NCBI GenBank assembly: GCA_020152595.1
Contig: JAIGNY010001269.1
Location: forward strand, 62,001-126,000
Source of the DNA: Chiridota heheva
Lineage: Eukaryota; Echinodermata; Holothuroidea; Apodida; Chiridotidae
Direction of reading: 5' to 3'
Length of the DNA stretch: 64,000 bases
The notes under the pieces were generated by a model. The model had not been told where the DNA came from and ran no database searches. It saw only the letters and a list, made by a program, of their open reading frames with translations. Made by a program: the position numbers and the translations under genes. Every line of letters starts with the position of its first letter. The stretch's first letter is position 1. Positions 2,877 through 61,807 of the stretch are shown here, piece by piece.

Positions 2877-3070
2877 GTAGGTACTGACTTCCCCCTCCCC
2901 AGGACCTCTCTCAACCCCTTCGGTTCCAGCTCCTCGGCAAAAATACACCCAAAAAATCCTATCTTCTCTGTATCACATTAACTATCCCAACGACGTTTGA
3001 TCCCCATCACGTCTTTCTACAATCCTACCCAACGAGTCTCACTACCTACTCACACTCTTTTCTCCTCACT

Positions 3071-3640
3071 TTAAAGGATTAGTTCAGTGGTCAAGCAAGT
3101 CTATTTCATATAAAAGAGAACTTCAAAAGAAACAAAATGGTGAAGAAAGCATTCAAACATCTTATTCCATTAAGGAGATATTTAAGTTTAAAGTTTGGTA
3201 TCATTTGTATAGAACCAACTGAAATCAGACTACTTGTGACGTCATAGCCTCAGATACCTCAAAGTCTTTATGTATTCTATCTTATTTTGTCCTGCGATTT
3301 TGTGGCTTATAAACCATGGGATATGTCAAAAAAGTAGTAAAGCTGAATCTAGGAGGGTATTTGTAATATACCACCAGAAGAAAGTTTGAAGAAAAATAAT
3401 TTAAATAGTGAAAAATTGAAATAAACTTTTTATAAATACACAAAGTCTTTGAGGAATCTGAGGTTGTGATGTCACAACTAGTCTGGTCTCAGTCATATCT
3501 ACAGAAATGATACCAAACTTTGAATTTGAATATCTCCTTAATGGAACAAGATTTTGCAATGCTTTCTTCACCATTTTATTTTGTTTAAAGTCCTCTTTCA
3601 TATAAGATGGACATGCTTCACCACTGAACTAATCCTTTAA
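3071..3640. mobile_element. MITE-A, complete fold-back copy
   Basis: The left end TTAAAGGATTAGTTCAGTGG and right end CCACTGAACTAATCCTTTAA are reverse complements. The two arms remain complementary for roughly 200 bp each (both contain AAAATGGTGAAGAAAGCATT in one sense and GTTTGGTATCATTT further in). TTAA at both ends suggests a piggyBac-type target. No coding capacity. This copy is the reference for tracing the 38-bp and 53-bp tandem arrays. Confidence 0.85.
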
Positions 3641-3929
3641 GATAATTTTCAAATTATATGCAGCAGAGGCGATAAGGTCACCAACTTGTTCATCCTGTTT
3701 TCCAGTGCTATTTATGATCAGGGTCACTATGGAAAGGAATTTCTCCTCCAGTTACTTCAACTTTCAGACAAATTTGCTTTCATCATGCATATGTATTTAT
3801 TCATTTGTTCAGTCTTGCTTAACACTTTTATTTCCTTTTCTCTTATTTGTATGCATCATTATTATGTGTTTTTGTATATTGTAAATTCCATCTCACAGTG
3901 AGTAAATATATTTAATCATTCAAACAATC

Positions 3930-4395
3930 AATTAGTCAGTCAGTCAGTCAGTCATCTAGTATAATGTGAGGCTGTGATGTCACCTCTAGTATAATATCAG
4001 CCATTTGCACACTTTTGAAATTTAACCTTGATTGTCTCCTAAATGACAATTTTTTTTTGTTGGAATACTGCTGTCACCATTTTTTATTTTTTTTACCGTC
4101 GTCCAGCATATAAAAAGGATCCTTTAAAGGATTAGATCAGTGGTCAAGGGAGGTCATCTCATATGAAATTAAACTTCTAAACAAACAAAAAAGTGAAGAA
4201 AGCAATTGAAAGAATCCAATTAGGAAAAATCTGTAATTAATTTTCTTTAAATACATTAACAATATTTAAGAAATTGAAAATGATGGTACCACCTTCTACA
4301 TTAGACCTGCTTCACCAGTCCTTTCCACAAAAATGAGACCATTTAAGTCCTCTTTTATACGAGATGAACTTTCTTGACCAGTGCACTAAACATTT
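3930..4395. mobile_element. Two partial MITE-A copies and a short TCAG repeat
   Basis: 3930-3955 holds AGTCAGTCAGTCAGTC. 3960-4127 is a right-half MITE-A (GTGATGTCACCTCTAG ... ATCCTTTAA). 4124-4395 is a shortened copy starting TTAAAGGATTAGATCAGTGG and ending with a decayed arm (CTTGACCAGTGCACTAAA) just before the exon at 4419. Confidence 0.65.
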
Positions 4396-4418
4396 GACAT
4401 TAAAACACTTTCTTGTAG

Positions 4419-4650
4419 GTTAGGTTTTGGTGCTCTCAAAAATCCATTGAGGGACAATCAAACGGAAAAAGTGCGAAGTCACATTGGTAAAGGAGTGCAG
4501 TTGCATAGAGACAGCGAAGGCAACGTCTGGGCTACGAGACTATCCAAGAACGACATCATCGTGAAGGGAAGCTTTGAGCCGGATAAACATTGTATATCGC
4601 AGGAGGTTGTGGCAATATATGGCAAGCTTCCAAGGAACATGCCAATGAAG
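4419..4650 (+). CDS. Exon: central MH2 domain (gene 1)
   Basis: The acceptor AG is at 4417-4418; the first base completes an Arg codon begun in the previous exon, and the exon ends in phase 0 at a GT donor at 4651. The protein reads RLGFGALKNPLRDN, then KVRSHIGKGVQLHRDSEG, then NVWATRLSKNDIIVKGS. This matches the MH2 core F-x-LG-x-LSN-x-x-R ... R-x-HIG-x-GV-x-L ... GEV-x-A-x-x-LS-x-x-x-I-x-V. The remainder includes EVVAIYGKLPRNMPMK. The acceptor lies only about 25 bp beyond the degenerate right end of a MITE copy (4124-4395). Confidence 0.88.
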
Positions 4651-4904
4651 GTATACTGTGCTTCTAATTTTAATGTATAGGACTTCTAAAAACCTACAGG
4701 TTTATTTTGATTTGGATGTTCATTTGAATTTTGAAAGGATGTTTCTTTCATTTACTTATTTTGGCTTTGAATACAAGGGTCTGAGAAAATTTATAGCCCA
4801 AATTATTAATTATTGCCAAAATAAATCAGAAAGATAATCGCAACACAATTAACATGGTGTACAGTATTGTAAATATCCTCAAAATATCAGATTGATTAGT
4901 CAAA

Positions 4905-10462: not shown

Positions 10463-10590
10463 TTGTGTGATTGCTTTCCAAGAAAAGCATTTAAATTTCA
10501 TCATCAAATTGATGATGAATTTGCTACATTATCCCCTCGCTTTTCAATTGTGCAGTGTTAAGCAATGGAAAACTATCTGACTGATTTTCT

Positions 10591-11400
10591 TTGAAAACTG
10601 GGGTAAAACAAGGATGTGTAATGTCTGGTTTCCTCTTTATACTTACTATTGACTGGGTGATGAGAACCAGTATACAAGGCAGAAGGAATGGAATCCGGTG
10701 GAACTTAATTACAGCCCTAGACAGTCTGGACTACGCTGATGACATTGCACTTATTTCTAGCACCAAAGAACAACTCCAAGATAAAACAAACAAACTACAT
10801 GAAATAGGTAAAAGAGTTGGTCTAAAGATTAATGAAAAAGGACAAAGATCTTGCGCATTAACAACAAAACTGATGGAACAATTAAAGTTGCAAATGCAGA
10901 GCTTGACGATGGTGATAGCTTTGTTTATCTCGGTGTAACACTGTCCAAAGAAGGACGCACTGATGAAGATATAAAATGCCGAATTGGGCTGGCACAGGCA
11001 ACTTTCAGACAACTTGACAAGATTTGGAAATCAAACATCTACCGGATGAAAATTAAACTGAAAATATTTCAATCAAATGTAATCTCAGTACTCCTCTATG
11101 GATGTGAAACCTGGAAGCTGACAAAAGCTGACGAAAAGAAACTTGATGTGTTCCAAAGGAGATGCATTAGAATTATTTTAAAGATTAATGGCCAGTGAAA
11201 GTCATTAATGAAGAACTATATGAAAGAACAGGCACAGTGGAGATAAGCAAGGAGATATTTAAGAGAAGATGGAGATGGTTGGGTCATGTATTAAAAAGGA
11301 CAAAGAAAAGTATTCCAAAATATCCATCACCTGGACACCAGAAGGTAGAAGAAAGAAGTGAAGACCTAAGACTACATGGAAAAGAGTGGCATGTGAAAGA
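10591..11400 (+). pseudogene. RTE-like reverse transcriptase relic
   Basis: The frame from 10591 encodes MKTGVKQGCVMSGFLFIL, then SLDYADDIALIS (intact YADD catalytic box), then GLKINEK. A shift near 10850-10930 moves the frame, which continues FVYLGVTLSKEGRTDEDIK, LLYGCETWKLTKADEKKLDV and RRCIRIILKI, then another shift to NEELYERTGTVEISKEIFKR and RRWRWLGHVLK. This order is typical of RTE-clade polymerase C-termini. At least two frameshifts and no endonuclease domain make it a dead 5'-truncated copy. Confidence 0.85.
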
Positions 11401-16474: not shown

Positions 16475-19190
16475 TAGGTATGGTTTTAATTCATTACTCT
16501 ACATTGATATGCATGAATGGTGGATCAGGTGTGGTTTAATCATTACTCTGCATTTATATGCATGAATGGTGGATCAGGTGTGGTTCAATCATTACTCTGC
16601 ATTGATATTTATGAACAGTGGATCAGGTGTGGTTTAATCTTTACTCTGCATTGATATGCATGAATGGTGGATCAGGTGTGGTTTAATCATTACTCTGCAT
16701 TGATATGCATGAATGGTGGATCAGGTGTGGTTTAATCATTAGTCTGCATTGATATGCATGAATGGTGGATCAGGTGTGGTTTAATCATTACTCTGCATTG
16801 ATATGCATGAATGGTGGATCAGGTGTGGTTTAATCATTACTCTGCATTGATATTAGTCTGCATTGATATGCATGAATGGTGGATCAGGTGTGGTTTAATC
16901 ATTAGTCTGCATTGATATGCATGAATGGTGGATCAGGTGTGGTTTAATCATTACTCTGCATCGATATGCATGTATGGTGGATCAGGTGTGGTTTAATCAT
17001 TACTCTGCATTGATATGCATGAATGGTGGATCAGGTGTGGTTTAATCATTACTCTGCATTGATATGCATAAACGGTGGATCAGGTGTGGTTTAATCATTA
17101 CTGTGCATTGATATGCATGAATGGTGGATCAGGTGTGGTTTAATCATTACTCTGCATTGATATTTATGAACAGTGGATCAGGTGTGGTTTAATCATTACT
17201 CTGCATTGATATGCATGAATGGTGGATCAGGTGTGGTTTAATCATTACTCTGCATTGATATGCATGAACGGTGGATCAGGTGTGGTTTAATCATTACTCT
17301 GCATTGATATGCATGAATGGTGGATCAGGTGTGGTTTAATCATTACTCTGCATTGATATTTATGAACAGTGGATCAGGTGTGGTTTAATCATTACTCTGC
17401 ATTGATATGCATGAATGGTGGATCAGGTGTGGTTTAATCATTACTCTGCATTGATATGCATGAATGGTGGATCAGGTGTGGTTTAATCATTACTCTGCAT
17501 TGATATGCATGAACGGTGGATCAGGTGTGGTTTAATCATTACTGTGCATTGATATGCATGAATGGTGGATCAGGTGTGGTTTAATCATTACTCTGCATTG
17601 ATATTTATGAACAGTGGATCACGTGTAGTTTAATCATTACTCTGCATTGATATGCATGAATGGTGGATCAGGTGTGGTTTAATCATTACTCTGCATTGAC
17701 ATTTATGAACAGTGGATCAGGTGTGCTTAAATCATTACTCTGCATTGATATGCATGAATGGTGGATCAGGTGTGGTTTAATCATTACTCTGCATTGATAT
17801 TTATGAACAGTGGATCAGGTGTGGTTTAATCATTACTCTGCATTGATATTTATGAACAGTGGATCAGGTGTGGTTTAATCTTTACTCTGCATTGATATGC
17901 ATGAATGGTGGATCAGGTGTGGTTTAATCATTACTCTGCATTGATATTTATAGACAGTGGATCAGGTGTGGTTTAATCATTACTGTGCATTGATATGCAT
18001 GAATGGTGGATCAGGTGTGGTTTAATCATTACTCTGCATTGATATTTATGAACAGTGGATCACGTGTAGTTTAATCATTACTCTGCATTGATATGCATGA
18101 ATGGTGGATCAGGTGTGGTTTAATCATTACTCTGCATTGACATTTATGAACAGTGGATCAGGTGTGCTTAAATCATTACTCTGCATTGATATGCATGAAT
18201 GGTGGATCAGGTGTGGTTTAATCATTACTCTGCATTGATATTTATGAACAGTGGATCAGGTGTGGTTTAATCATTACTCTGCATTGATATTTATGAACAG
18301 TGGATCAGGTGTGGTTTAATCTTTACTCTGCATTGATATGCATGAATGGTGGATCAGGTGTGGTTTAATCATTACTCTGCATTGATATTTATAGACAGTG
18401 GATCAGGTGTGGTTTAATCTTTACTCTGCATTGATATGCATGAACGGTGGATCAGGTGTGGTTTAATCATTACTCTGCATTGATATGCATGAATGGTGGA
18501 TCAGGTGTGGTTTAATCATTACTCTGCATTGATATGCATGAATGGTGGATCAGGTGTGGTTTAATCATTACTGTGCATTGATATTTATGAACAGTGGATC
18601 AGGTGTGGTTTAATCATTAGTCTGCATTGATATTAGTCTGCATTGATATGCATGAATGGTGGATCAGGTGTGGTTTAATCATTACTCTGCATTGATATGC
18701 ATGAATGGTGGATCAGGTGTGGTTTAATCATTACTCTGCATTGATATGCATGAATGGTGGATCAGGTGTGGTTTAATCATTACTGTGCATTGATATTTAT
18801 GAACGGTGGATCAGGTGTGGTTTAATTATTACTCTGCATTGATATGCATGAATGGTGGATCAGGTGTGGTTTAATCATTACTCTGCATTGACATTTATGA
18901 ACAGTGGATCAGGTGTGCTTAAATCATTACTCTGCATTGATATGCATGAATGGTGGATCAGGTGTGGTTTAATCATTACTCTACATTGATATGCATGAAT
19001 GGTGGATCAGGTGTGGTTTAATTCATTACTCTGCATTGATATGCATGAACGGTGGATCAGGTGTGGTTTAATCATTACTCTGCATTGATATGCATGAAGA
19101 GTGGATCAGATGTGGTTTAATCATTACTCTGCATTGATATGCATGAATGGTGGATCAGGTGTGGTTTAATCATTACTCTGCATTGATGAT
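16475..19190. repeat. 49-bp minisatellite with higher-order structure
   Basis: About 55 units containing GGTGGATCAGGTGTGGTTTA, ATCATTACTCTGCATTGATA and TGCATGAAT. A common variant has TTTATGAACA instead of GCATGAATG. The rare variant CACGTGTAGTTT occurs at 17620 and 18061, 441 bp (nine units) apart, with the neighbouring variants also repeated, so a nine-unit block was duplicated. A partial unit (ATATTAGTCTGCATTG) appears twice, near 16850 and 18625. The array ends about 55 bp before the exon at 19244. Confidence 0.93.
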
Positions 19191-21572: not shown

Positions 21573-21860
21573 TGCTCTAATAAGCGCCCACCTGATAATA
21601 TAATTCATTTAATTATTTTGAAGACTTTAACATACAGTTAAAGTATAGTTTTGTTACATTCTTTGCTTCTTTTGCATCTGACGCTCACAATGCTTTTGTG
21701 GTGGTTATTGTGGGGCTAGTATTAAAGCGGTTCACATTTATGTACAATGCCATTCAAATAGCACTCTACGCGGCCCCCAAGCATTGCACTTATTAGGAAG
21801 AAACTTTGAGCCTAAAACGTTGTGGAATCATATTTTCATAAGCGCCCAGGTGCCCAATTG
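21573..21860. mobile_element. MITE-D copy 2, reverse orientation
   Basis: Contains AATAAGCGCCCACCTGATAA, TTGTTACATTCTTTGCTTCT, TGCATCTGACGCTCACAATG and a terminal ATAAGCGCCCAGGTGCCCAA. It is the reverse complement of copy 1. Confidence 0.75.
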
Positions 21861-21899
21861 AAAATGGTAGTTTCAATATCTTTTTCCATTCAGGAGATA

Positions 21900-22330
21900 T
21901 TATTCAGGAGATATTGTAAAGTTGTTATGGAAATGACAGGTGTGAAAAGTCTACTGTAGGTTATCGCTCTCATGCATTCTCACATTCTGAGCTATTGTGA
22001 AAGTATTTTAAAGAAAATTAATTTTCTTACTAGCTTTCTTCAGGTGGTAAATAATAGTTACAGTAGGTCACTTGATTCTGTGTACTAATTTACTGACTTG
22101 TCCAACAGCTTTCAAGCTATGTAATCTCAGGAAGAAAAACAAATAAGACAAAGATTATTGATCGTGTAATGTCATCACTTGTCTGATTTCAGTCATTTCT
22201 ACAAAAACAAGACAAGAATTTCAATTTGGATATCACCTTAACCTAATAAGACTTGAATGCTTTCTTCACCATTTTCTTTCTTCTAATATCTTTTATTGAA
22301 GATGAACTTGCTTGATCACTGAACTTATCC
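21900..22330. mobile_element. MITE-A right half leading into the 38-bp satellite
   Basis: Landmarks appear in MITE-A order: CAGTCATTTCTAC (22191), ATCACCTTAA (22232), TTTCTTCACCATTTT (22261), then GATGAACTTGCTTGATCACT and GAACTTATCCTATAAA. This last stretch is the MITE terminus (GATGGACTTG...CCACTGAACTAATCCTTTAA) and also the first satellite unit. Confidence 0.75.
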
Positions 22331-25300
22331 TATAAAATGATGAACTTGCTTGATCACTGAACTTATCCTATAAAGTGATGAACTTGCTTGATCACTGAAC
22401 TTATCCTATAAAATGATGAACTTGCTTGATCACTGAACTTATCCTATAAAGTGATGAACTTGCTTGATCACTGAACTTATCCTATAAAATGATGAACTTG
22501 CTTGATTACTGAACTTATCCTATAAAGTGATGAACTTGCTTGATCACTGAACTTATCCTATAAAGTGATGAACTTGCTTGATCACTGAACTTATCCTATA
22601 AAATGATGAACTTGCTTGATCACTGAACTTATCCTATAAAGTGATGAACTTGCTTGATCACTGAACTTATCCTATAAAGTGATGAACTTGCTTGATCACT
22701 GAACTTATCCTATAAAGTGATGAACTTGCTTGATCACTGAACTTATCCTATAAAATGATGAACTTGCTTGATCACTGAACTTATCCTATAAAATGATGAA
22801 CTTGCTTGATCACTGAACTTATCCTATAAAATGATGAACTTGCTTGATTACTGAACTTATCCTATAAAGTGATGAACTTTTGATTACTGAACTTATCCTA
22901 TAAAGTGATGAACTTGCTTGATCACTGAACTTATCCTATAAAGTGATGAACTTGCTTGATTACTGAACTTATCCTATAAAGTGATGAACTTGCTTGATTA
23001 CTGAACTTATCCTATAAAGTGATGAACTTGCTTGATCACTGAACTTATCCTATAAAGTGATGAACTTGCTTGATCACTGAACTTATCCTATAAAGTGATG
23101 AACTTGCTTGATTACTGAACTTATCCTATAAAGTGATGAACTTGCTTGATTACTGAACTTATCCTATAAAGTGATGAACTTGCTTGATCACTGAACTTAT
23201 CCTATAAAGTGATGAACTTGCTTGATCACTGAACTTATCCTATAAAGTGATGAACTTGCTTGATTACTGAACTTATCCTATAAAGTGATGAACTTGCTTG
23301 ATTACTGAACTTATCCTATAAAGTGATGAACTTGCTTGATCACTGAACTTATCCTATAAAATGATGAACTTGCTTGATCACTGAACTTATCCTATAAAGT
23401 GATGAACTTGCTTGATCACTGAACTTATCCTATAAAGTGATGAACTTGCTTGATTACTGAACTTATCCTATAAAATGATGAACTTGTTTGATCACTGAAC
23501 TTATCCTATAAAGTGATGAACTTGTTTGATCACTGAACTTATCCTATAAAGTGATGAACTTGCTTGATTACTGAACTTATCCTATAAAGTGATGAACTTG
23601 CTTGATTACTGAACTTATCCTATAAAGTGATGAACTTGCTTGATTACTGAACTTATCCTATAAAATGATGAACTTGCTTGATTACTGAACTTATCCTATA
23701 AAATGATGAACTTGCTTGATCACTGAACTTATCCTATAAAATGATGAACTTGCTTGATCACTGAACTTATCCTATAAAGTGATGAACTTGCTTGATCACT
23801 GAACTTATCCTATAAAATGATGAACTTGCTTGATTACTGAACTTATCCTATAAAGTGATGAACTTGCTTGATTACTGAACTTATCCTATAAAATGATGAA
23901 CTTGCTTGATCACTGAACTTATCCTATAAAATGATGAACTTGCTTGATCACTGAACTTATCCTATAAAGTGATGAACTTGCTTGATCACTGAACTTATCC
24001 TATAAAATGATGAACTTGCTTGATTACTGAACTTATCCTATAAAGTGATGAACTTGCTTGATCACTGAACTTATCCTATAAAATGATGAACTTGCTTGAT
24101 TACTGAACTTATCCTATAAAGTGATGAACTTGCTTGATCACTGAACTTATCCTATAAAATGATGAACTTGCTTGATCACTGAACTTATCCTATAAAGTGA
24201 TGAACTTGCTTGATCACTGAACTTATCCTATAAAATGATGAACTTGCTTGATCACTGAACTTATCCTATAAAATGATGAACTTGCTTGATCACTGAACTT
24301 ATCCTATAAAGTGATGAACTTGCTTGATCACTGAACTTATCCTATAAAATGATGAACTTGCTTGATTACTGAACTTATCCTATAAAGTGATGAACTTGCT
24401 TGATCACTGAACTTATCCTATAAAATGATGAACTTCCTTGATCACTGAACTTATCCTATAAAATGATGAACTTGCTTGATCACTGAACTTATCCTATAAA
24501 GTGATGAACTTGCTTGATCACTGAACTTATCCTATAAAGTGATGAACTTGCTTGATTACTGAACTTATCCTATAAAGTGATGAACTTGCTTGATCACTGA
24601 ACTTATCCTATAAAATGATGAACTTGCTTGATTACTGAACTTATCCTATAAAGTGATGAACTTGCTTGATCACTGAACTTATCCTATAAAATGATGAACT
24701 TGCTTGATCACTGAACTTATCCTATAAAGTGATGAACTTGCTTGATCACTGAACTTATCCTATAAAGTGATGAACTTGCTTGATTACTGAACTTATCCTA
24801 TAAAGTGATGAACTTGCTTGATCACTGAACTTATCCTATAAAATGATGAACTTGCTTGATTACTGAACTTATCCTATAAAATGATGAACTTGCTTGATTA
24901 CTGAACTTATCCTATAAAGTGATGAACTTGCTTGATCACTGAACTTATCCTATAAAATGATGAACTTGCTTGATTACTGAACTTATCCTATAAAGTGATG
25001 AACTTGCTTGATTACTGAACTTATCCTATAAAGTGATGAACTTGCTTGATCACTGAACTTATCCTATAAAATGATGAACTTGCTTGATTACTGAACTTAT
25101 CCTATAAAGTGATGAACTTGCTTGATTACTGAACTTATCCTATAAAATGATGAACTTGCTTGATCACTGAACTTATCCTATAAAGTGATGAACTTGCTTG
25201 ATCACTGAACTTATCCTATAAAGTGATGAACTTGCTTGATCACTGAACTTATCCTATAAAATGATGAACTTGCTTGATTACTGAACTTATCCTATAAAGT

Positions 25301-28300
25301 GATGAACTTGCTTGATCACTGAACTTATCCTATAAAGTGATGAACTTGCTTGATCACTGAACTTATCCTATAAAATGATGAACTTGCTTGATTACTGAAC
25401 TTATCCTATAAAGTGATGAACTTGCTTGATCACTGAACTTATCCTATAAAATGATGAACTTACTTGATTACTGAACTTATCCTATAAAGTGATGAACTTG
25501 CTTGATTACTGAACTTATCCTATAAAGTGATGAACTTGCTTGATCACTGAACTTATCCTATAAAATGATGAACTTGCTTGATTACTGAACTTATCCTATA
25601 AAGTGATGAACTTGCTTGATTACTGAACTTATCCTATAAAATGATGAACTTGCTTGATCACTGAACTTATCCTATAAAGTGATGAACTTGCTTGATTACT
25701 GAACTTATCCTATAAAGTGATGAACTTGCTTGATTACTGAACTTATCCTATAAAGTGATGAACTTGCTTGATCACTGAACTTATCCTATAAAATGATGAA
25801 CTTGCTTGATTACTGAACTTATCCTATAAAGTGATGAACTTGCTTGATTACTGAACTTATCCTATAAAGTGATGAACTTGCTTGATTACTGAACTTATCC
25901 TATAAAGTGATGAACTTGCTTGATCACTGAACTTATCCTATAAAGTGATGAACTTGCTTGATCACTGAACTTATCCTATAAAGTGATGAACTTGCTTGAT
26001 TACTGAACTTATCCTATAAAGTGATGAACTTGCTTGATTACTGAACTTATCCTATAAAGTGATGAACTTGCTTGATCACTGAACTTATCCTATAAAATGA
26101 TGAACTTGCTTGATCACTGAACTTATCCTATAAAATGATGAACTTGCTTGATTACTGAACTTATCCTATAAAATGATGAACTTGCTTGATTACTGAACTT
26201 ATCCTATAAAGTGATGAACTTGTTTGATCACTGAACTTATCCTATAAAGTGATGAACTTGCTTGATCACTGAACTTATCCTATAAAATGATGAACTTGCT
26301 TGATTACTGAACTTATCCTATAAAGTGATGAACTTGCTTGATCACTGAACTTATCCTATAAAGTGATGAACTTGCTTGATCACTGAACTTATCCTATAAA
26401 GTGATGAACTTGCTTGATCACTGAACTTATCCTATAAAATGATGAACTTGCTTGATTACTGAACTTATCCTATAAAGTGATGAACTTGCTTGATTACTGA
26501 ACTTATCCTATAAAGTGATGAACTTGCTTGATCACTGAACTTATCCTATAAAGTGATGAACTTGCTTGATCACTGAACTTATCCTATAAAGTGATGAACT
26601 TGCTTGATTACTGAACTTATCCTATAAAATGATGAACTTGCTTGATCACTGAACTTATCCTATAAAATGATGAACTTGCTTGATTACTGAACTTATCCTA
26701 TAAAATGATGAACTTGCTTGATCACTGAACTTATCCTATAAAATGATGAACTTGCTTGATCACTGAACTTATCCTATAAAGTGATGAACTTGCTTGATCA
26801 CTGAACTTATCCTATAAAATGATGAACTTGCTTGATTACTGAACTTATCCTATAAAGTGATGAACTTGCTTGATCACTGAACTTATCCTATAAAATGATG
26901 AACTTGCTTGATTACTGAACTTATCCTATAAAGTGATGAACTTGCTTGATCACTGAACTTATCCTATAAAATGATGAACTTGCTTGATCACTGAACTTAT
27001 CCTATAAAGTGATGAACTTGCTTGATCACTGAACTTATCCTATAAAGTGATGAACTTGCTTGATTACTGAACTTATCCTATAAAGTGATGAACTTGCTTG
27101 ATCACTGAACTTATCCTATAAAATGATGAACTTGCTTGATTACTGAACTTATCCTATAAAATGATGAACTTGCTTGATTACTGAACTTATCCTATAAAGT
27201 GATGAACTTGCTTGATCACTGAACTTATCCTATAAAATGATGAACTTGCTTGATTACTGAACTTATCCTATAAAGTGATGAACTTGCTTGATTACTGAAC
27301 TTATCCTATAAAGTGATGAACTTGCTTGATCACTGAACTTATCCTATAAAATGATGAACTTGCTTGATTACTGAACTTATCCTATAAAGTGATGAACTTG
27401 CTTGATTACTGAACTTATCCTATAAAATGATGAACTTGCTTGATCACTGAACTTATCCTATAAAGTGATGAACTTGCTTGATCACTGAACTTATCCTATA
27501 AAGTGATGAACTTGCTTGATCACTGAACTTATCCTATAAAATGATGAACTTGCTTGATTACTGAACTTATCCTATAAAGTGATGAACTTGCTTGATCACT
27601 GAACTTATCCTATAAAGTGATGAACTTGCTTGATCACTGAACTTATCCTATAAAATGATGAACTTGCTTGATTACTGAACTTATCCTATAAAGTGATGAA
27701 CTTGCTTGATCACTGAACTTATCCTATAAAATGATGAACTTACTTGATTACTGAACTTATCCTATAAAGTGATGAACTTGCTTGATTACTGAACTTATCC
27801 TATAAAATGATGAACTTGCTTGATCACTGAACTTATCCTATAAAGTGATGAACTTGCTTGATTACTGAACTTATCCTATAAAGTGATGAACTTGCTTGAT
27901 TACTGAACTTATCCTATAAAGTGATGAACTTGCTTGATCACTGAACTTATCCTATAAAATGATGAACTTGCTTGATTACTGAACTTATCCTATAAAGTGA
28001 TGAACTTGCTTGATTACTGAACTTATCCTATAAAGTGATGAACTTGCTTGATTACTGAACTTATCCTATAAAGTGATGAACTTGCTTGATCACTGAACTT
28101 ATCCTATAAAGTGATGAACTTGCTTGATTACTGAACTTATCCTATAAAGTGATGAACTTGCTTGATTACTGAACTTATCCTATAAAGTGATGAACTTGCT
28201 TGATCACTGAACTTATCCTACAAAATGATGAACTTGCTTGATCACTGAACTTATCCTATAAAATGATGAACTTGCTTGATTACTGAACTTATCCTATAAA

Positions 28301-28870
28301 ATGATGAACTTGCTTGATTACTGAACTTATCCTATAAAGTGATGAACTTGTTTGATCACTGAACTTATCCTATAAAGTGATGAACTTGCTTGATCACTGA
28401 ACTTATCCTATAAAATGATGAACTTGCTTGATTACTGAACTTATCCTATAAAGTGATGAACTTGCTTGATCACTGAACTTATCCTATAAAGTGATGAACT
28501 TGCTTGATCACTGAACTTATCCTATAAAGTGATGAACTTGCTTGATCACTGAACTTATCCTATAAAATGATGAACTTGCTTGATTACTGAACTTATCCTA
28601 TAAAGTGATGAACTTGCTTGATTACTGAACTTATCCTATAAAGTGATGAACTTGCTTGATCACTGAACTTATCCTATAAAGTGATGAACTTGCTTGATCA
28701 CTGAACTTATCCTATAAAGTGATGAACTTGCTTGATTACTGAACTTATCCTATAAAATGATGAACTTGCTTGATCACTGAACTTATCCTATAAAATGATG
28801 AACTTGCTTGATTACTGAACTTATCCTATAAAATGATGAACTTGCTTGATCACTGAACTTATCCTATAAA
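22299..28870. repeat. 38-bp satellite array of about 6.5 kb
   Basis: About 170 units of GATGAACTTGCTTGATCACT plus GAACTTATCCTATAAART. Two positions are two-state throughout: ATCACT/ATTACT and AAAT/AAGT. Rare variants (CTTCCTTG 24435, CTTACTTG 25460 and 27740, TTGTTTGATC at 23485, 23525, 26222 and 28350, a shortened unit at 22873) mark larger duplications. There is no reading frame. The array occupies most of the 19331-30801 intron of gene 1. Confidence 0.97.
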
Positions 28871-28954
28871 ATTGCTGCTAATATTGAATAAAATGCTTAC
28901 TCACTTTGATGAAATTAAATATCTTTCCTCTTATATTTCACATCCATTTTCTAA

Positions 28955-32985: not shown

Positions 32986-33560
32986 ATAAAGGATTAGTTC
33001 AGTGGTCAAGCAAGTTTATCTTGTAAAAAAAGTACTTTAAAAGAAACAAAATGGTGACCAAAGCATAAAAAAATATTATTCTGTTAAAGAGGTAGTCCAG
33101 TTTAAAGCTCTAGTTGTATCCTGTGTAGAAACGATTGATGTAGTAACTCTACTATAGAAGGTTGGCGCCCTAATCTTCACATTCTTAACAATTGTTAATG
33201 TATTTTAAAGAAAATTCATTTAAGTTTTTAACTATTTGAATTATTTTTCCTCAAACTTTATTCAGGTGGTAAATTATAAGTACCCCAACTAGATTCTGTT
33301 TAACTACTTTTCTGACATATCCCATGGTTTTTAAGCCACAAAATCGCAGGGCAAAATATGATAGAATACTGTACTTAAAGACTTTCGAGGAATCTGAGGC
33401 TATGACATCACAACTTGTCTTGATTTCAGTCGTTTCTACACAAATGATACCAAACTTAACTTGAATATCTCCTTAACGGAATATGATTTTTGAACGCTTT
33501 CTTTTGAAGTCCTCTTTTATATAAGATGGACTTGTCTGACCCCTGAACTAATCCTTCTAA
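32986..33560. mobile_element. MITE-A, second near-complete copy
   Basis: Left end ATAAAGGATTAGTTCAGTGG, right end CCCTGAACTAATCCTTCTAA. Internal words GAAACAAAATGGTGA, GACATCACAACTTGTCT and GGTGGTAAATTATAAG match 3071-3640. Confidence 0.8.
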
Positions 33561-46924: not shown

Positions 46925-47600
46925 TGAAAATCTATTAATTAAATACACAGAGACTGTTGAGGAATATGAAGTAATTACTAGTCTTATTCCAGTCATTTCT
47001 ACCTAAACTAACTGCAAATTAAACTATTACTAGTCTTACTCCAGTCATTTCTACCTGAATCTAAATGCAATTTAAGCTATTACTAGTCTTACCCCAGTCA
47101 TTTCTACCTAAATCCGTCTGCAATTTAAACTTACTAGTCTTATTCCAGTCATTTCTACCTAAATCTAACTGCACTTTAAACTATTACTAGTCTAACCCCA
47201 GTCATTTCTACCTGAATCTAACTGCAATTTAAACTATTATTAGTCTTACCCCAGTCATTTCTACCTAAATCTAACTGCAATATAAACTATTACTAGTATT
47301 ACTCCAGTCATTTCTACCTAAATCTAACTGCAATTTAAACTATTACTAGTATTACCCCAGTCATTTCTTCCCGAATCTAACTGCAATTTGAACTATTACT
47401 AGTCTTACTCCAGTCATTTCTACCTGAATCTATCTGCAATTTAAACTATTACTAGTCTAACTCCAGTCATTTCTACCTAAATCTAACTAAAATTTAAACT
47501 TGAATATCCACACCTGAATAAACTTGAATATCTATTAAACAGAATCGGACAGAATACAATTCAATACATTTTAAAACCCTTGTTTTCACTATTTTGTTTT
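46925..47600. repeat. 53-bp array inside a MITE-A copy
   Basis: Flanks are MITE-A: ATACACAGAGACTGTTGAGG on the left, TTGAATATCTATTAAACAGA then TTTTCACTATTTTGTTTT on the right. In between are about nine units of ACTAGTCTTACTCCAGTCAT, TTCTACCTAAATCTAACTGC and AATTTAAACTATT. A single counterpart (ACTAGTCTGGTCTCAGTCAT ... TTTGAATTTGAATATC) is in the intact MITE at 3475-3535. Confidence 0.82.
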
Positions 47601-54700: not shown

Positions 54701-54859
54701 CTGCAAAATTAAGGACAGAACATGAAGCATAACAAAATATTATTTACCATAGATTATACATATAGACAATTATTTTATTATGTAGCGATCAATTTTTAGA
54801 TATGCCTCATAGAAGTGTTTTTACATTTCTAGGAATTTCATTCTTTTTGTTACTTACTA

Positions 54860-57800
54860 TTAGCTTTTATTTGTTTTGTAAAGCACCGCTGAATATTCTT
54901 GCAAGTACTTTTCTATTTGCTTTTGTTTGTTTTGTAAAGCACTGCTGATTAATCTTGCAAGTACTTTTTTATTAGCTTTTGTTTGTTTTGTAAAGCACCG
55001 CTGATTAATCTTGCAAGTACTATTTCTATGGGCTCTAGCTTGTATTGTCAAGGACCGCTGATTAATCTTGCAAGTACTTTTCTATTAGCTTTTGTTTGTA
55101 TTGTAAAGCACCGCTGATTATTCTTGCAAGTACTTTTCTATTAGCTTTTGTTTGTTTTGTAAAGCACTGCTGATTAATCTTGCAAGTACTTTTCTATTAG
55201 TTTTTGTTTGTTTTGTAAAGGACCGCTGATTAATCTTGCAAGTACTTTTCTATTAGCTTTTGTTTGTTTTGTAAAGCACCGCTGATTAATCTTGCAAGTA
55301 CTATTTCTATTAGATTTTGCTTGTATTGTAAAGCACTGCTGATTAATCTTGGAAGTACTTTTCTATTAGCTTTTGTTTGTATTGTCAAGCACTGCTGATT
55401 AATCTTGCAAGTACTTTTCTATTAGCTTTTGTTTGTTTTGTAAAGCACCGCTGATTAATCTCGCAAGTACTTTTCTATTAGCTTTTGTTTGTTTTGTAAA
55501 GCACCGCTGATTAATCTCGCAAGTACTTTTCTATTAGCTTTTGTTTGTTTTGTAAAGCACCCGCTAATTAATCTTGCAAGTACTTTTTTATTAGCTTTTG
55601 TTTGTTTTGTAAAGCACTGCTAATTAATCTTGCAAGTACTATTTCTTGGGCTCTAGCTTGTATTGTCAAGGACTACTGATTAATCTCGCAAGTACTTTTC
55701 TATTAGCTTTTGTTTGTTTTGTAAAGCACCGCTGATTAATCTTGCAAGTACTTTTCTATTAGCTTTTGTTTGTTTTGTAAAGCACCCGCTAATTAATCTT
55801 GCAAGTACTTTTTTATTAGCTTTTGTTTGTTTTGTAAAGCACTGCTAATTAATCTTGCAAGTACTATTTCTATGGGCTCTAGCTTGTATTGTCAAAGACT
55901 GCTGATTAATCTCGCAAGTACTTTTCTATTAGCTTTTGTTTGTATTGTAAAGCACTGCTGATTAATCTTGCAAGTACTTTTCTATTAGCTTTTGTTTGTA
56001 TTGTAAAGCACCGCTGATTAATCTTGCAAGTACTTTTCTATTAGCTTTTGTTTGTTTTGTAAAGCACCGCTGATTAATCTTGCAAGTACTATTTCTATGG
56101 GCTCTAGCTTGTATTGTCAAAGACTGCTGATTAATCTCGCAAGTACTTTTCTATTAGCTTTTGTTTGTATTGTAAAGCACCGCTGATTTATCTTGCAAGT
56201 ACTTTTTTATTAGCTTTTGTTTGTTTTGTAAAGCACCGCTGATTAATCTTGCAAGTACTATTTCTATGGGCTCTAGCTTGTATTGTCAAGGACCGCTGAT
56301 TAATCTTGCAAGTACTATTTCTATTAGCTTTTGCTTGTATTGTAAAGCACTGCTGATTAATCTTGCAAGTTCTTTTCTATTAGCTTTTGTTTGTATTGTC
56401 AAGCACTGCTGATTAATCTTGCAAGTACTTTTTTATTAGCTTTTGTTTGTTTTGTAAAGCACCGCTGATTAATCTTGCAAGTACTTTTCTATTAGCTTTT
56501 GTTTGTTTTGTAAAGCACCGCTGATTAATCTTGCAAGTACTTTTCTATTAGCTTTTGTTTGTATTGTAAAGCACTGCTGATTAATCTTGCAAGTACTTTT
56601 CTATTAGCTTTTGTTTGTATTGTAAAGCACCGCTGATTAATCTTGCAAGTACTTTTCTATTAGCTTTTGTTTGTTTTGTAAAGCACCGCTGATTAATCTT
56701 GCAAGTACTATTTCTATGGGCTCTAGCTTGTATTGTCAAAGACTGCTGATTAATCTCGCAAGTACTTTTCTATTAGCTTTTGTTTGTATTGTAAAGCACC
56801 GCTGATTTATCTTGCAAGTACTTTTTATTAGCTTTTGTTTGTTTTGTAAAGCACCGCTGATTAATCTTGCAAGTACTATTTCTATTAGTTTTTGCTTGTA
56901 TTGTAAAGCACTGCTGATTAATCTTGCAAGTACTTTTCTATTAGCTTTTGTTTGTATTGTCAAGCACTGCTGATTAATCTTGCAAGTACTTTTCTATTAG
57001 CTTTTGTTTGTTTTGTAAAGCACCGCTGATTAATCTTGCAAGTACTTTTCTATTAGCTTTTGTTTGTTTTGTAAAGCACCGCTGATTAATCTTGCAAGTA
57101 CTTTTCTATTAGCTTTTGTTTGTTTTGTAAAGCACCCGCTAATTAATCTTGCAAGTACTTTTTTATTAGCTTTTGTTTGTTTTATAAAGCACTGCTAATT
57201 AATCTTGCAAGTACTATTTCTATGGGCTCTAGCTTGTATTGTCAAGGACTGCTGATTAATTGTTTGTTCTATTAGCTTTTGTTTGTTTTGTAAAGCACTG
57301 CTAATTAATCTTGCAAGTACTATTTCTATGAGCTCTAGCTTGTATTGTCAAGGACTGCTGATTAATCTCGCAAGTACTTTTCTATTAGCTTTTGTTTGTT
57401 TTGTAAAGCACCGCTGATTAATCTTGCAAGTACTTTTCTATTAGCTTTTGTTTGTTTTGTAAAGCACCCGCTTATTAATCTTGCAAGTACTTTTTTATCA
57501 GCTTTTGTTTGTTTTGTAAAGCACTGCTAATTAGTACTATTTCTATGGGCTCTAGCTTGTATTGTCAAGGACTGCTGATTAATCTCGCAAGTACTTTTCT
57601 ATTAGCTTTTGTTTGTATTGTAAAGCACCGCTGATTAATCTTGCAAGTACTTTTCTATTAGCTTTTGTTTGTTTTGTAAAGTACCACTGATTAATCTTGC
57701 AAGTACTTTTCTATTAGCTTTTGTTTGTATTGTAAAGCACCGCTGATTAATCTTGCAAGTACTTTTCTATTAGCTTTTTTTTTGTTTGTAAAGCACCGCT

Positions 57801-59205
57801 GATTAATCTTGCAAGTACTTTTCTATTAGCTTTTGTTTGTTTTGTAAAGTACCACTGATAAATCTTGCAAGTACTTTTCTATTAGCTTTTGTTTGTTTTG
57901 TAAAGCACCGCTGATTAATCTTGCAAGTACTTTTCTATTAGCATTTGTTTTGTAAAGCACTGCTGATTAATCTTGCAAGTACTTTTTTATCAGCTTTTGT
58001 TTGTTTTGTAAAGCACCACTGATTAATCTTGCAAGTACTTTTCTATTAGCTTTTGTTTGTATTGTAAAGCACTGCTGATTGATCTTGCAAGTACTTTTCT
58101 ATTAGCTTTTGTTTGTTTTGTAAAGCACCGCTGATTAATCTTGCAAGTACTTTTCTATTAGCTTTTGTTTGTTTTGTAAAGTACCACTGATAAATCTTGC
58201 AAGTACTTTTCTATTAGCTTTTGTTTGTATTGTAAAGTGCTGCTTATTAATCTTGCAAGTACTTTTCTATTAGCTTTTATTTGTTTTGTAAAGCACTGCT
58301 GATTAATCTTGCAAGTACTTTTCTATTAACTTTTTTTTGTTTTGTTAGGTACCGCTGATTAATCTTGCAAGTACTTTTCTATTAGCTTTTGTTTGTTTTG
58401 TAGAGCACTGCTGATTAATCTTGCAAGTACTTTTCTATTAGCTTTTGTTTGTTTTGTAAAGCACCACTGATTGATCTTGCAAGTACTTTTCTATTAGCTT
58501 TTATTTGTTTTGTAAAGCACTGCTGATTGATCTTGCAAGTACTTTTCTATTAGCTTTTGTTTGTTTTGTAAAGCACTGCTGAATAATCTTGCAAGTACTT
58601 TTCTATTAGCTTTTGTTTGTATTGTAAAGCACCCGCTTATTAATCTTGCAAGTACTTTTCTATTAGCTTTTATTTGTTTTGTAAAGCACTGCTGATTAAT
58701 CTTGCAAGTACTTTTCTATTAACTTTTTTTTGTTTTGTTAGGTACCGCTGATTAATCTTGCAAGTACTTTTCTATTAGCTTTTGTTTGTTTTGTACAGCA
58801 CTGCTGAATAATCGTGCAAGTACTTTTCTATAAACTTTTGTATGTATTGTAAAGCACCGCTAATTAATCTTGCAAGTACTTTTCTATTAGCTTTTATTTG
58901 TTTTGTAAAGCACTGCTGATTAATCTTGCAAGTACTTTTCTATTAGTTTTGTTTGTTTTGTAAAGCACCACTGATTAATCTTGCAAGTACTTTTCTATTA
59001 GCTTTTGTTTGTTTTGTAAAGCACCGCTGATTAATCTTGCAAGTAGTTTTCTATTAGCTTTTGTTTGTATTGTAAAGCACCGCTAATTAATCTTGCAAGT
59101 ACTTTTCTATTAGCTTTTGTTTGTTTTGTAAAGCACTGCTGATTAATCTTGCAAGTCCTTTTCAATTAGCTTTTGTTTGTATTGTAAAGTGCTGCTGCTT
59201 ACTCT
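54860..59205. repeat. 56-bp minisatellite in an RCC1L intron
   Basis: About 77 units built on CTGATTAATCTTGCAAGTAC, TTTTCTATTAGCTTTTGTTT and GTTTTGTAAAGCACCG. A second unit class has TATTTCTATGGGCTCTAGCT and TGTATTGTCAAGGAC in place of the second half. Class 2 recurs at about 55020, 55640, 55865, 56090, 56262, 56710, 57217, 57325 and 57543, mostly within similar multi-unit blocks. Units after about 57.6 kb are class 1 only. Confidence 0.95.
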
Positions 59206-61195: not shown

Positions 61196-61355
61196 AGCTC
61201 TTTTGAATATGAACTGCAGGTTGTGTTATTGCATACATGAGCATGCGTCCTTTCAACTGGTGAATTTTCAGTCTCTCACATTTCAGAACATTTCTCACAT
61301 TTTGAGAACTAAATTTTTGAAATGTATTTAACATTAATCAAATCCTTTACATTAC

Positions 61356-61440
61356 CTGTCTGTCCATCTGCTCCCCATCCACAGCTGTATATATGCCCCT
61401 CGTCTGTCAGAAACAAGCTGTGATCATGCCCACATACGAC
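61356..61440 (-). CDS. RCC1L: RCC1L, most 5' exon recognised
   Basis: On the minus strand, after TTTGCAG, it encodes VVCGHDHSLFLTDEGHIYSC then GWGADGQTG, with a GTAATG donor. CG-x-DHSLFLT-x-x-G-x-VYSCGWGADGQTG is a near-exact RCC1L signature. The N-terminal exons (mitochondrial targeting peptide and first blades) should lie beyond 61.4 kb on the minus strand. I could not recognise them before 64000, so they are probably outside the window. Confidence 0.93.
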
Positions 61441-61807
61441 CTGCAAATATAATTTATTTAAAATTTGTTTACAATATTCATAGCATTTAAAGATACTGAA
61501 ATCTAGCAAATTATATTTACCTAGAGCATGAAATTGTGAGTACTGAGAAGAAATGTTTTTGAGTAGAAAGAGTTTTTCATTTTGTTTCTAAGGTATGGTA
61601 TTGAACAAAGTTTCAAAAGTTCTGATATATGTAAAATTTATGACATACTGCAGTAAGTTGGAGACAAGGCCACAATCTATTATCAGTATATTCTCATTTG
61701 AGTGCAAGGTGCAGTCAGACCCACTGCAGGTAAACAGATCTGCCAATTTTAATTGCGAGAACACTCATCGCATCTGATTGCAGTCACTTGATCTTAATCC
61801 TAGTCAA

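Follow-up and report, generated by a model that had tools for sequence, protein, structure and literature searches.

A satellite-like 38-bp array at the right end of an old MITE-A copy in Chiridota heheva, and recurrent tandem repeats from the ends of the same family

Repeats and exons of the window

The window is the whole 64,000-nucleotide stretch that was analysed (C1206:62001-126000 of a 1.1-Gb assembly). Its features, with positions numbered from the first letter of the stretch, are as follows.

3071-3640, forward strand: intact MITE-A copy with TTAA at both ends and 206-bp inverted arms (by alignment)
4390-4677, forward strand: MH2-domain exon
10585-10935, forward strand: reverse-transcriptase fragment
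21856-22300, forward strand: old MITE-A copy whose right end probably seeded the array that follows (body score 117, shuffle maximum 25, outer side 22)
22301-28870, forward strand: 38-bp satellite-like array of 173 units (Tandem Repeats Finder, TRF), each unit being 35 bp of the MITE-A right end plus AAT or AGT
24541-25490, forward strand: block of 25 units that recurs 60 units (2.28 kb) downstream (by unit-type lag analysis)
28873-28940, forward strand: outer flank of the array, with no MITE match above shuffles (outer score 22)
32986-33560, forward strand: second full-length MITE-A copy, of the other interior type (by alignment)
46974-47500, forward strand: 53-bp array of 10 units, apparently derived from internal sequence of a further old MITE-A copy (by alignment)
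61312-61587, reverse strand: RCC1-repeat exon

Tandem repeats with a period of at least 10 occupy 34% of the window, in 38 merged arrays. At 22301-28870, TRF reported 172.9 copies of period 38 with 96% matches (~6.6 kb) and a direct count gave 173 units, in agreement with the roughly 170-fold amplification named in the original prediction. Each unit consists of GATGAACTTGCTTGATCACTGAACTTATCCTATAA, the final 35 bp of MITE-A, followed by AAT or AGT, three bases that resemble the host flank; the prediction that the terminal ~38 bp of the element had been amplified was therefore right as to the terminal origin and wrong as to the length. The last unit is complete at 28872 once the AAT at 28870-28872 is included, TRF having placed the end at 28870. 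Four unit types, which differ by C or T at position 17 and A or G at position 37, cover 163 of the 173 units. The other 10 are less common variants; two of these were delimited as 36-bp units, one of the two being the final unit as ended by TRF. A run of 25 unit types is repeated at a lag of 60 units and a run of 16 at a lag of 56, against a longest repeated run of 10 in 300 shuffles, so that blocks of the array were duplicated; the 25-unit block is a later segmental duplication within it. All matches of at least 95% to the 38-bp unit, among the matches listed, fall within this single 6.6-kb array, which on those matches does not answer to the classical description of satellite DNA (abundant, heterochromatic and Mb-scale). 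It does consist of head-to-tail units homologous to a transposable element, and is in that sense a TE-derived satellite.

The sequence before the array had been described as the right half of a MITE-A copy. MITE-A sequence does lie there in order, but alignments to six full-length copies start at 21772-21861 and end at 22335-22340, varying with copy and strand, which rules out a right half only and points to a nearly complete but old element at ~21.8-22.3 kb. Its left terminus was looked for at the locus and was not found. When aligned to the MITE copy at 3066-3650, the pre-array stretch together with unit 1 scored 140 (maximum 32 in 500 mononucleotide shuffles), and the 35 bp of MITE sequence in unit 1 scored 40 by themselves (maximum 26 in 1000 shuffles). 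Both alignments bear out the claim that the first satellite unit coincides with the MITE terminus: the array begins exactly at the right end of the pre-array copy, with unit 1 in register. Given a MITE end at the left edge and non-MITE DNA after the last unit, both edges of the array fall on unit boundaries, as in-place tandem duplication predicts. Microhomology was looked for at the junction of the window array, and none was found (overlap -2).

The 53-bp array at 46974-47500 has a unit that matches the MITE-A interior over 26 bp (score 37; maximum 29 in 40 shuffles), and is flanked by weak MITE remnants scoring 44 on the left (reached by 0 of 200 shuffles) and 38 on the right (reached by 1 of 200). 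Two MITE-A copies within 64 kb therefore appear to have produced arrays. The 49-bp array of 54 units (16476-19187) and the 56-bp array of 77 units (54857-59189) did not match MITE-A above shuffles.

MITE-A and its tandem ends across the assembly

The nine MITE-A copies compared are ~485-570 bp long and have the shortness, inverted termini and high copy number of a MITE, with termini that read AGGATTAG...CTAATCCT. TTAA stands directly outside the left end in seven of the nine copies, outside the right end in five and outside both in four. The inverted arms of the copy at 3071-3640 extend over 206 bp and are 84% complementary, as in foldback elements, which are defined by long inverted arms; those of the copy at 32986 span only 42 bp ungapped. 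The terminal AG of MITE-A agrees with the RR terminal sequence given as a feature of the Kolobok superfamily in the available part of PMC6004289, where Xenopus T2-MITEs (Kolobok) are characterised by a TTAA target and a terminal AGGRR. MITE-A starts with AGGAT, of which the first four letters fit that motif and the fifth is T, and we therefore do not file it as T2. By these sequence features the element appears Kolobok-like, in a family that resembles the Kolobok/T2 MITEs.

Exact 13-mers were counted over the entire assembly. The MITE-A terminal 13-mer, CTGAACTAATCCT, occurs 23,682 times (reversed control 16), or in ~12,000 copies if each has two ends. It stands in exact tandem in 731 pairs at 23-53 bp, in 617 pairs at 54-84 bp, many of which, among the matches listed, are multiples of shorter units, and in 2124 pairs at 95-125 bp (reversed control 0 in each class). 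A 13-mer ~60 bp inside the element occurs 20,272 times (control 259) with 57 tandem pairs at 23-53 bp (control 2), a complete list of which, read by eye, comes to 19 places; for one ~150 bp inside, the figures are 15,640 occurrences (control 41) and 39 tandem pairs (control 0), or 11 places by eye. Arrays of MITE-A interior words were seen at C1073:66937-67689 (41 bp), C1561:809481-810729 (21 bp) and C3373:18012-19259 (~30 bp). Per occurrence, the terminus is ~11-12 times richer in exact short tandem pairs than the two interior words. Among the matches listed (~100 rows, C1-C297, read by eye), the 731 pairs occupy 27 places, three of them (C58, C157 and C201) doubtful for their unrelated spacers, and scaling by pair number from these 27 gives, as a rough extrapolation, ~200 loci with terminal tandems at 23-53 bp. 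The array searches required the terminal 13-mer, so arrays that lack it were missed. A 2022 review (PMC9659126, section 2.2) called it unresolved whether satellites come preferentially from particular parts of transposons, and the counts of terminus versus interior test that question within one family. We conclude that array formation is a recurrent, terminus-biased process within one MITE family, and that births of arrays from the MITE-A interior occur but are rarer.

Loci were fetched for 20 of the 22 places listed outside the window array (6-8 kb each; C866 and C714 were left out), together with 20 short loci and 16 two-ended MITEs with flank, and 50 array rows from these were scored for MITE body on either side at a cut-off of 45, the largest shuffle score being 35. 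Ten rows too near the end of a locus were set aside (three inner, five none, two both). The remaining 40 rows are not all independent, since two may come from a single locus, and L059 and L063 are overlapped by L085 and L086. MITE body was present on the inner side of 30 of them, on the outer side of none, on both sides of none and on neither side of 10. The expectation that other arrays would start at a MITE-A end is thus mostly borne out. Arrays that are old or truncated are among the rows that lack MITE body, as is one of 32 bp (L044) that another TTAA element seems to have interrupted. One array scored as 'none', L047, owed this to a stray match that shifted its start, and when scored separately had its body inside (93 versus a shuffle maximum of 22). 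L059-L063 were scored outside the 50 rows: L059 and L063 were inner, and the flank of L062 was too short. Matches lay on both sides in L060 (226 inner, 67 outer) and on the outer only in L061 (16 inner, 66 outer); in the last two the outer match reads as one further 110-bp unit, truncated where the locus ends. The original prediction had also regarded the capture of a full history in one window, from intact element to satellite, as unusual; the history stands, but it recurs across many loci of the MITE-A family.

Two further readings of the array were weighed. MITE-A might have acquired a pre-existing satellite or inserted beside one, and a capture model of this kind exists for miDNA4, according to the available text of PMC12628747. 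However, the window unit is in register with the MITE end, most of the 23,682 occurrences of the terminal word are not part of short tandem pairs, and none of the 40 rows has MITE body on its outer side; on these grounds we reject capture, which we regard as very improbable. A chance resemblance or an assembly artefact, to which the high uniformity of the array might point (four types making up 163 of 173 units), has a probability close to negligible, as the alignment lies far above shuffles and many arrays of differing size keep the same register at other loci; chance resemblance is rejected for both reasons.

Several observations were made alongside these counts. At L044:1-3470, two 32-bp MITE-terminus arrays flank ~2.7 kb of sequence whose ends read TTAACCCTTACTCTCCC in inverted orientation, and which, judged by these ends, probably represents a different TTAA transposon that entered the array. 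At L039:3045-3197, 33-bp terminus repeats of both orientations adjoin. The 48-bp end of another TTAAAGGAGACAC-ended repeat stands in tandem at L038:522-619 and C3731:3374-3482; with only four tandem pairs, at two contigs, this repeat suggests that the terminal array process may extend beyond MITE-A.

Unit lengths, junctions and self-insertion

Units range from short (19, 23, 29, 30, 32, 33, 34, 35, 36, 38, 39, 40 and 41 bp) to longer (44, 45, 46, 47, 51-52, ~80-81, 99, 110 and 117 bp), and some include bases that belong to the locus rather than to MITE-A. The L031 unit shares locus-specific non-MITE bases with the outer edge of its array (an exact match of 12 bp, of which 8 lie beyond TTAA), and the units of L037 and L046, read by eye, carry non-MITE bases to the outer edge over ~10 bp or more each; L066, L068 and L047 share only 2-3 bp beyond TTAA-like letters with theirs, a weak match. 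At C272:1235860 the unit has a long non-MITE insert. Arrays whose units hold locus-specific non-MITE bases are most simply explained by an origin in place, which on this sequence evidence is the most likely one for them. C254:4223 and C758:14316-14939 have a similar ~80-bp unit with a non-MITE insert, a likeness that reflects either a duplicated locus or separated haplotypes.

The pairs at 95-125 bp behave differently from this irregular class. Among the matches listed (~100 rows, C2-C169, read by eye) they fall into ~45 places, nearly all of which show one of three junctions (99, 110 or 117), some with substitutions or small indels; four further listed places are multiples of 35 or 51-52, and L071 mixes unit sizes of 110-115, 99 and 99. 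In 20 arms of ten MITE-A copies, 26 of the 50 internal TTAA sites lie at 99 (7), 111 (4), 116-117 (9) or 50-52 (6) bp, and 23 at other spacings, some of which are probably the same sites moved by indels. The 99, 117 and 52 unit classes equal a terminal-to-internal TTAA spacing exactly, and the 110 class is 1 bp off the 111 site. At 35 bp, TTAA was present in one of the 20 arms and one-off matches in 12, such one-off matches being equally common at spacings of 20 and 40.

Two loci show MITE-A inserted into its own kind. L072 reads, in order, MITE 1 to its -110 site, the whole of MITE 2 and the final 110 bp of MITE 1, with a target duplication of TAA or TTAA. In L086, MITE 2 lies within MITE 1 at -52 with TTAA flanking both sides, and the 56 bp before MITE 2 match the expected MITE stretch with a score of 62 (shuffle maximum 47). 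These are 2 of the 16 two-ended MITE loci. An insertion inside the end of another MITE-A copy leaves a second terminus at a fixed spacing. The left terminus could be found in 15 of 35 loci, where it adjoins the remainder of MITE 1 in two, unrelated flank in 12 (among them L060, with only 50 bp beyond the terminus) and extra terminal units in L077. With a remainder in only 2 of 15, self-insertion that retains it explains few dimers, and for the majority of the observed two-ended copies one has to invoke either duplication in place or a composite that moved later. No prior report of terminal repeats made by self-insertion was found in titles and abstracts, a search outside which most subscription papers fell.

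In an alternative account of the genome-wide counts, transposition of a MITE subfamily with dimeric ends handed on the dimers from which many arrays grew, and new births are rarer than the counts suggest. Dimers of 52, 99, 110 and 117 bp do recur at many loci with identical junctions, and both ends of L077 and of L083 bear extra units. Against this, the many unit lengths and the locus-specific bases in some units need separate events, and the window array does not fit such a history; we consider the account credible, if on balance somewhat improbable.

Origin of the array and known parallels

We interpret the window array, with a probability of about 0.8, as a minisatellite of satellite-like character that arose in situ where one old MITE-A copy has its right end. 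Its register, the make-up of its unit, both of its edges and its orientation, with MITE body inside and unrelated DNA outside, were observed directly and uphold the central claim of the original prediction, that the satellite arose from one MITE-A end. A tandem duplication would have joined a point 3 bp outside MITE-A to a point 35 bp inside it, the first duplication probably occurring by template slippage or end joining, and unequal exchange would then have expanded and homogenised the array to 173 units, including the later copying of a ~25-unit block. Alternatively, a second MITE-A may have inserted ~35 bp inside the end of the first and the remainder been lost, 38 bp then being the 35-bp class plus 3. 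Arrays of 35 bp with a CCTTTAA/GATGG junction at several loci, the self-insertions at -52 and -110, and the TTAA at -35 in one of 20 arms (one-off in 12) speak for such an event, but the three extra bases of the unit reach the outer edge (AAT), matching in-place duplication, and no left terminus was found at the array's locus, so that we regard it as unlikely.

Genome-wide, the MITE-A end is a recurrent source of seeds by at least two routes: (i) an irregular in-place route, in which the unit can include the locus's own flank; and (ii) self-insertion, in which MITE-A enters TTAA-like sites within the end of its own kind, the observed cases being those at -52 and -110. Such a composite, delimited by its outermost termini, might later transpose as a unit and so yield two-ended copies that lack the remainder of the first element. 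Candidate causes of the preference for the terminus are self-insertion into internal TTAA, the only one with direct evidence here, repair of transposase cuts at the MITE-A end, and stalling at the base of the long inverted repeat.

Satellites derived from transposon ends are already known; what is new here is the measured terminal bias, the recurrent lengths and the recurrence within one genome. The nearest precedent is Xmix/Xstir of Xenopus, a T2-MITE (Kolobok) system that, in the available parts of PMC6004289 and PMC12628747, targets TTAA, as MITE-A may also do, and shares with MITE-A an AGG terminus and the coexistence of MITEs, tandem arrays and composites. Xmix carries tandem Xstir, described as an amplified internal segment in the accessible text of PMC6004289, whereas the source of Xstir is given as the TIR in Table 1 of PMC9659126, making an internal/terminal contrast with MITE-A uncertain; as these sources present it, Xstir is one named repeat, unlike the many unit lengths of MITE-A at many loci. 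Tetris TIR-220, from a foldback element of Drosophila virilis, likewise forms arrays from a TIR with long inverted arms but, in the available account (PMC4079207), has a single unit length of ~220 bp that is already part of the element, whereas MITE-A has many lengths, at single loci. In the TE dimers formed by double insertion (McGurk and Barbash, as summarised in PMC12628747), site preference also leads to expandable tandem copies; by that summary these are copies of the whole element, whereas the MITE-A repeat is a 52- or 110-bp end piece, because the second copy enters the terminal part of an element of its own kind. As outlined in PMC12628747, miDNA4 (a Tc1/mariner MITE of Xenopus tropicalis) resembles MITE-A in that a MITE drives a satellite; in that outline microhomology is invoked, and the repeat is a captured internal one, in contrast to MITE-A's own terminus.

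We propose, tentatively and as a doubtful rather than a favoured idea, that MITE-A may be a self-targeting maker of satellites, in which TTAA-like sites 52-117 bp (perhaps 35) inside its ends serve as targets and composites transpose again. If so, the recurrent spacings of the terminal repeats would be a direct product of transposition, and extrapolation would put the number of loci poised to expand into satellites at hundreds to ~1000. The starts of satellites are usually inferred from one finished array; MITE-A offers many starts in one genome, with differing unit lengths, readable junctions and stages from the dimer to 173 units.
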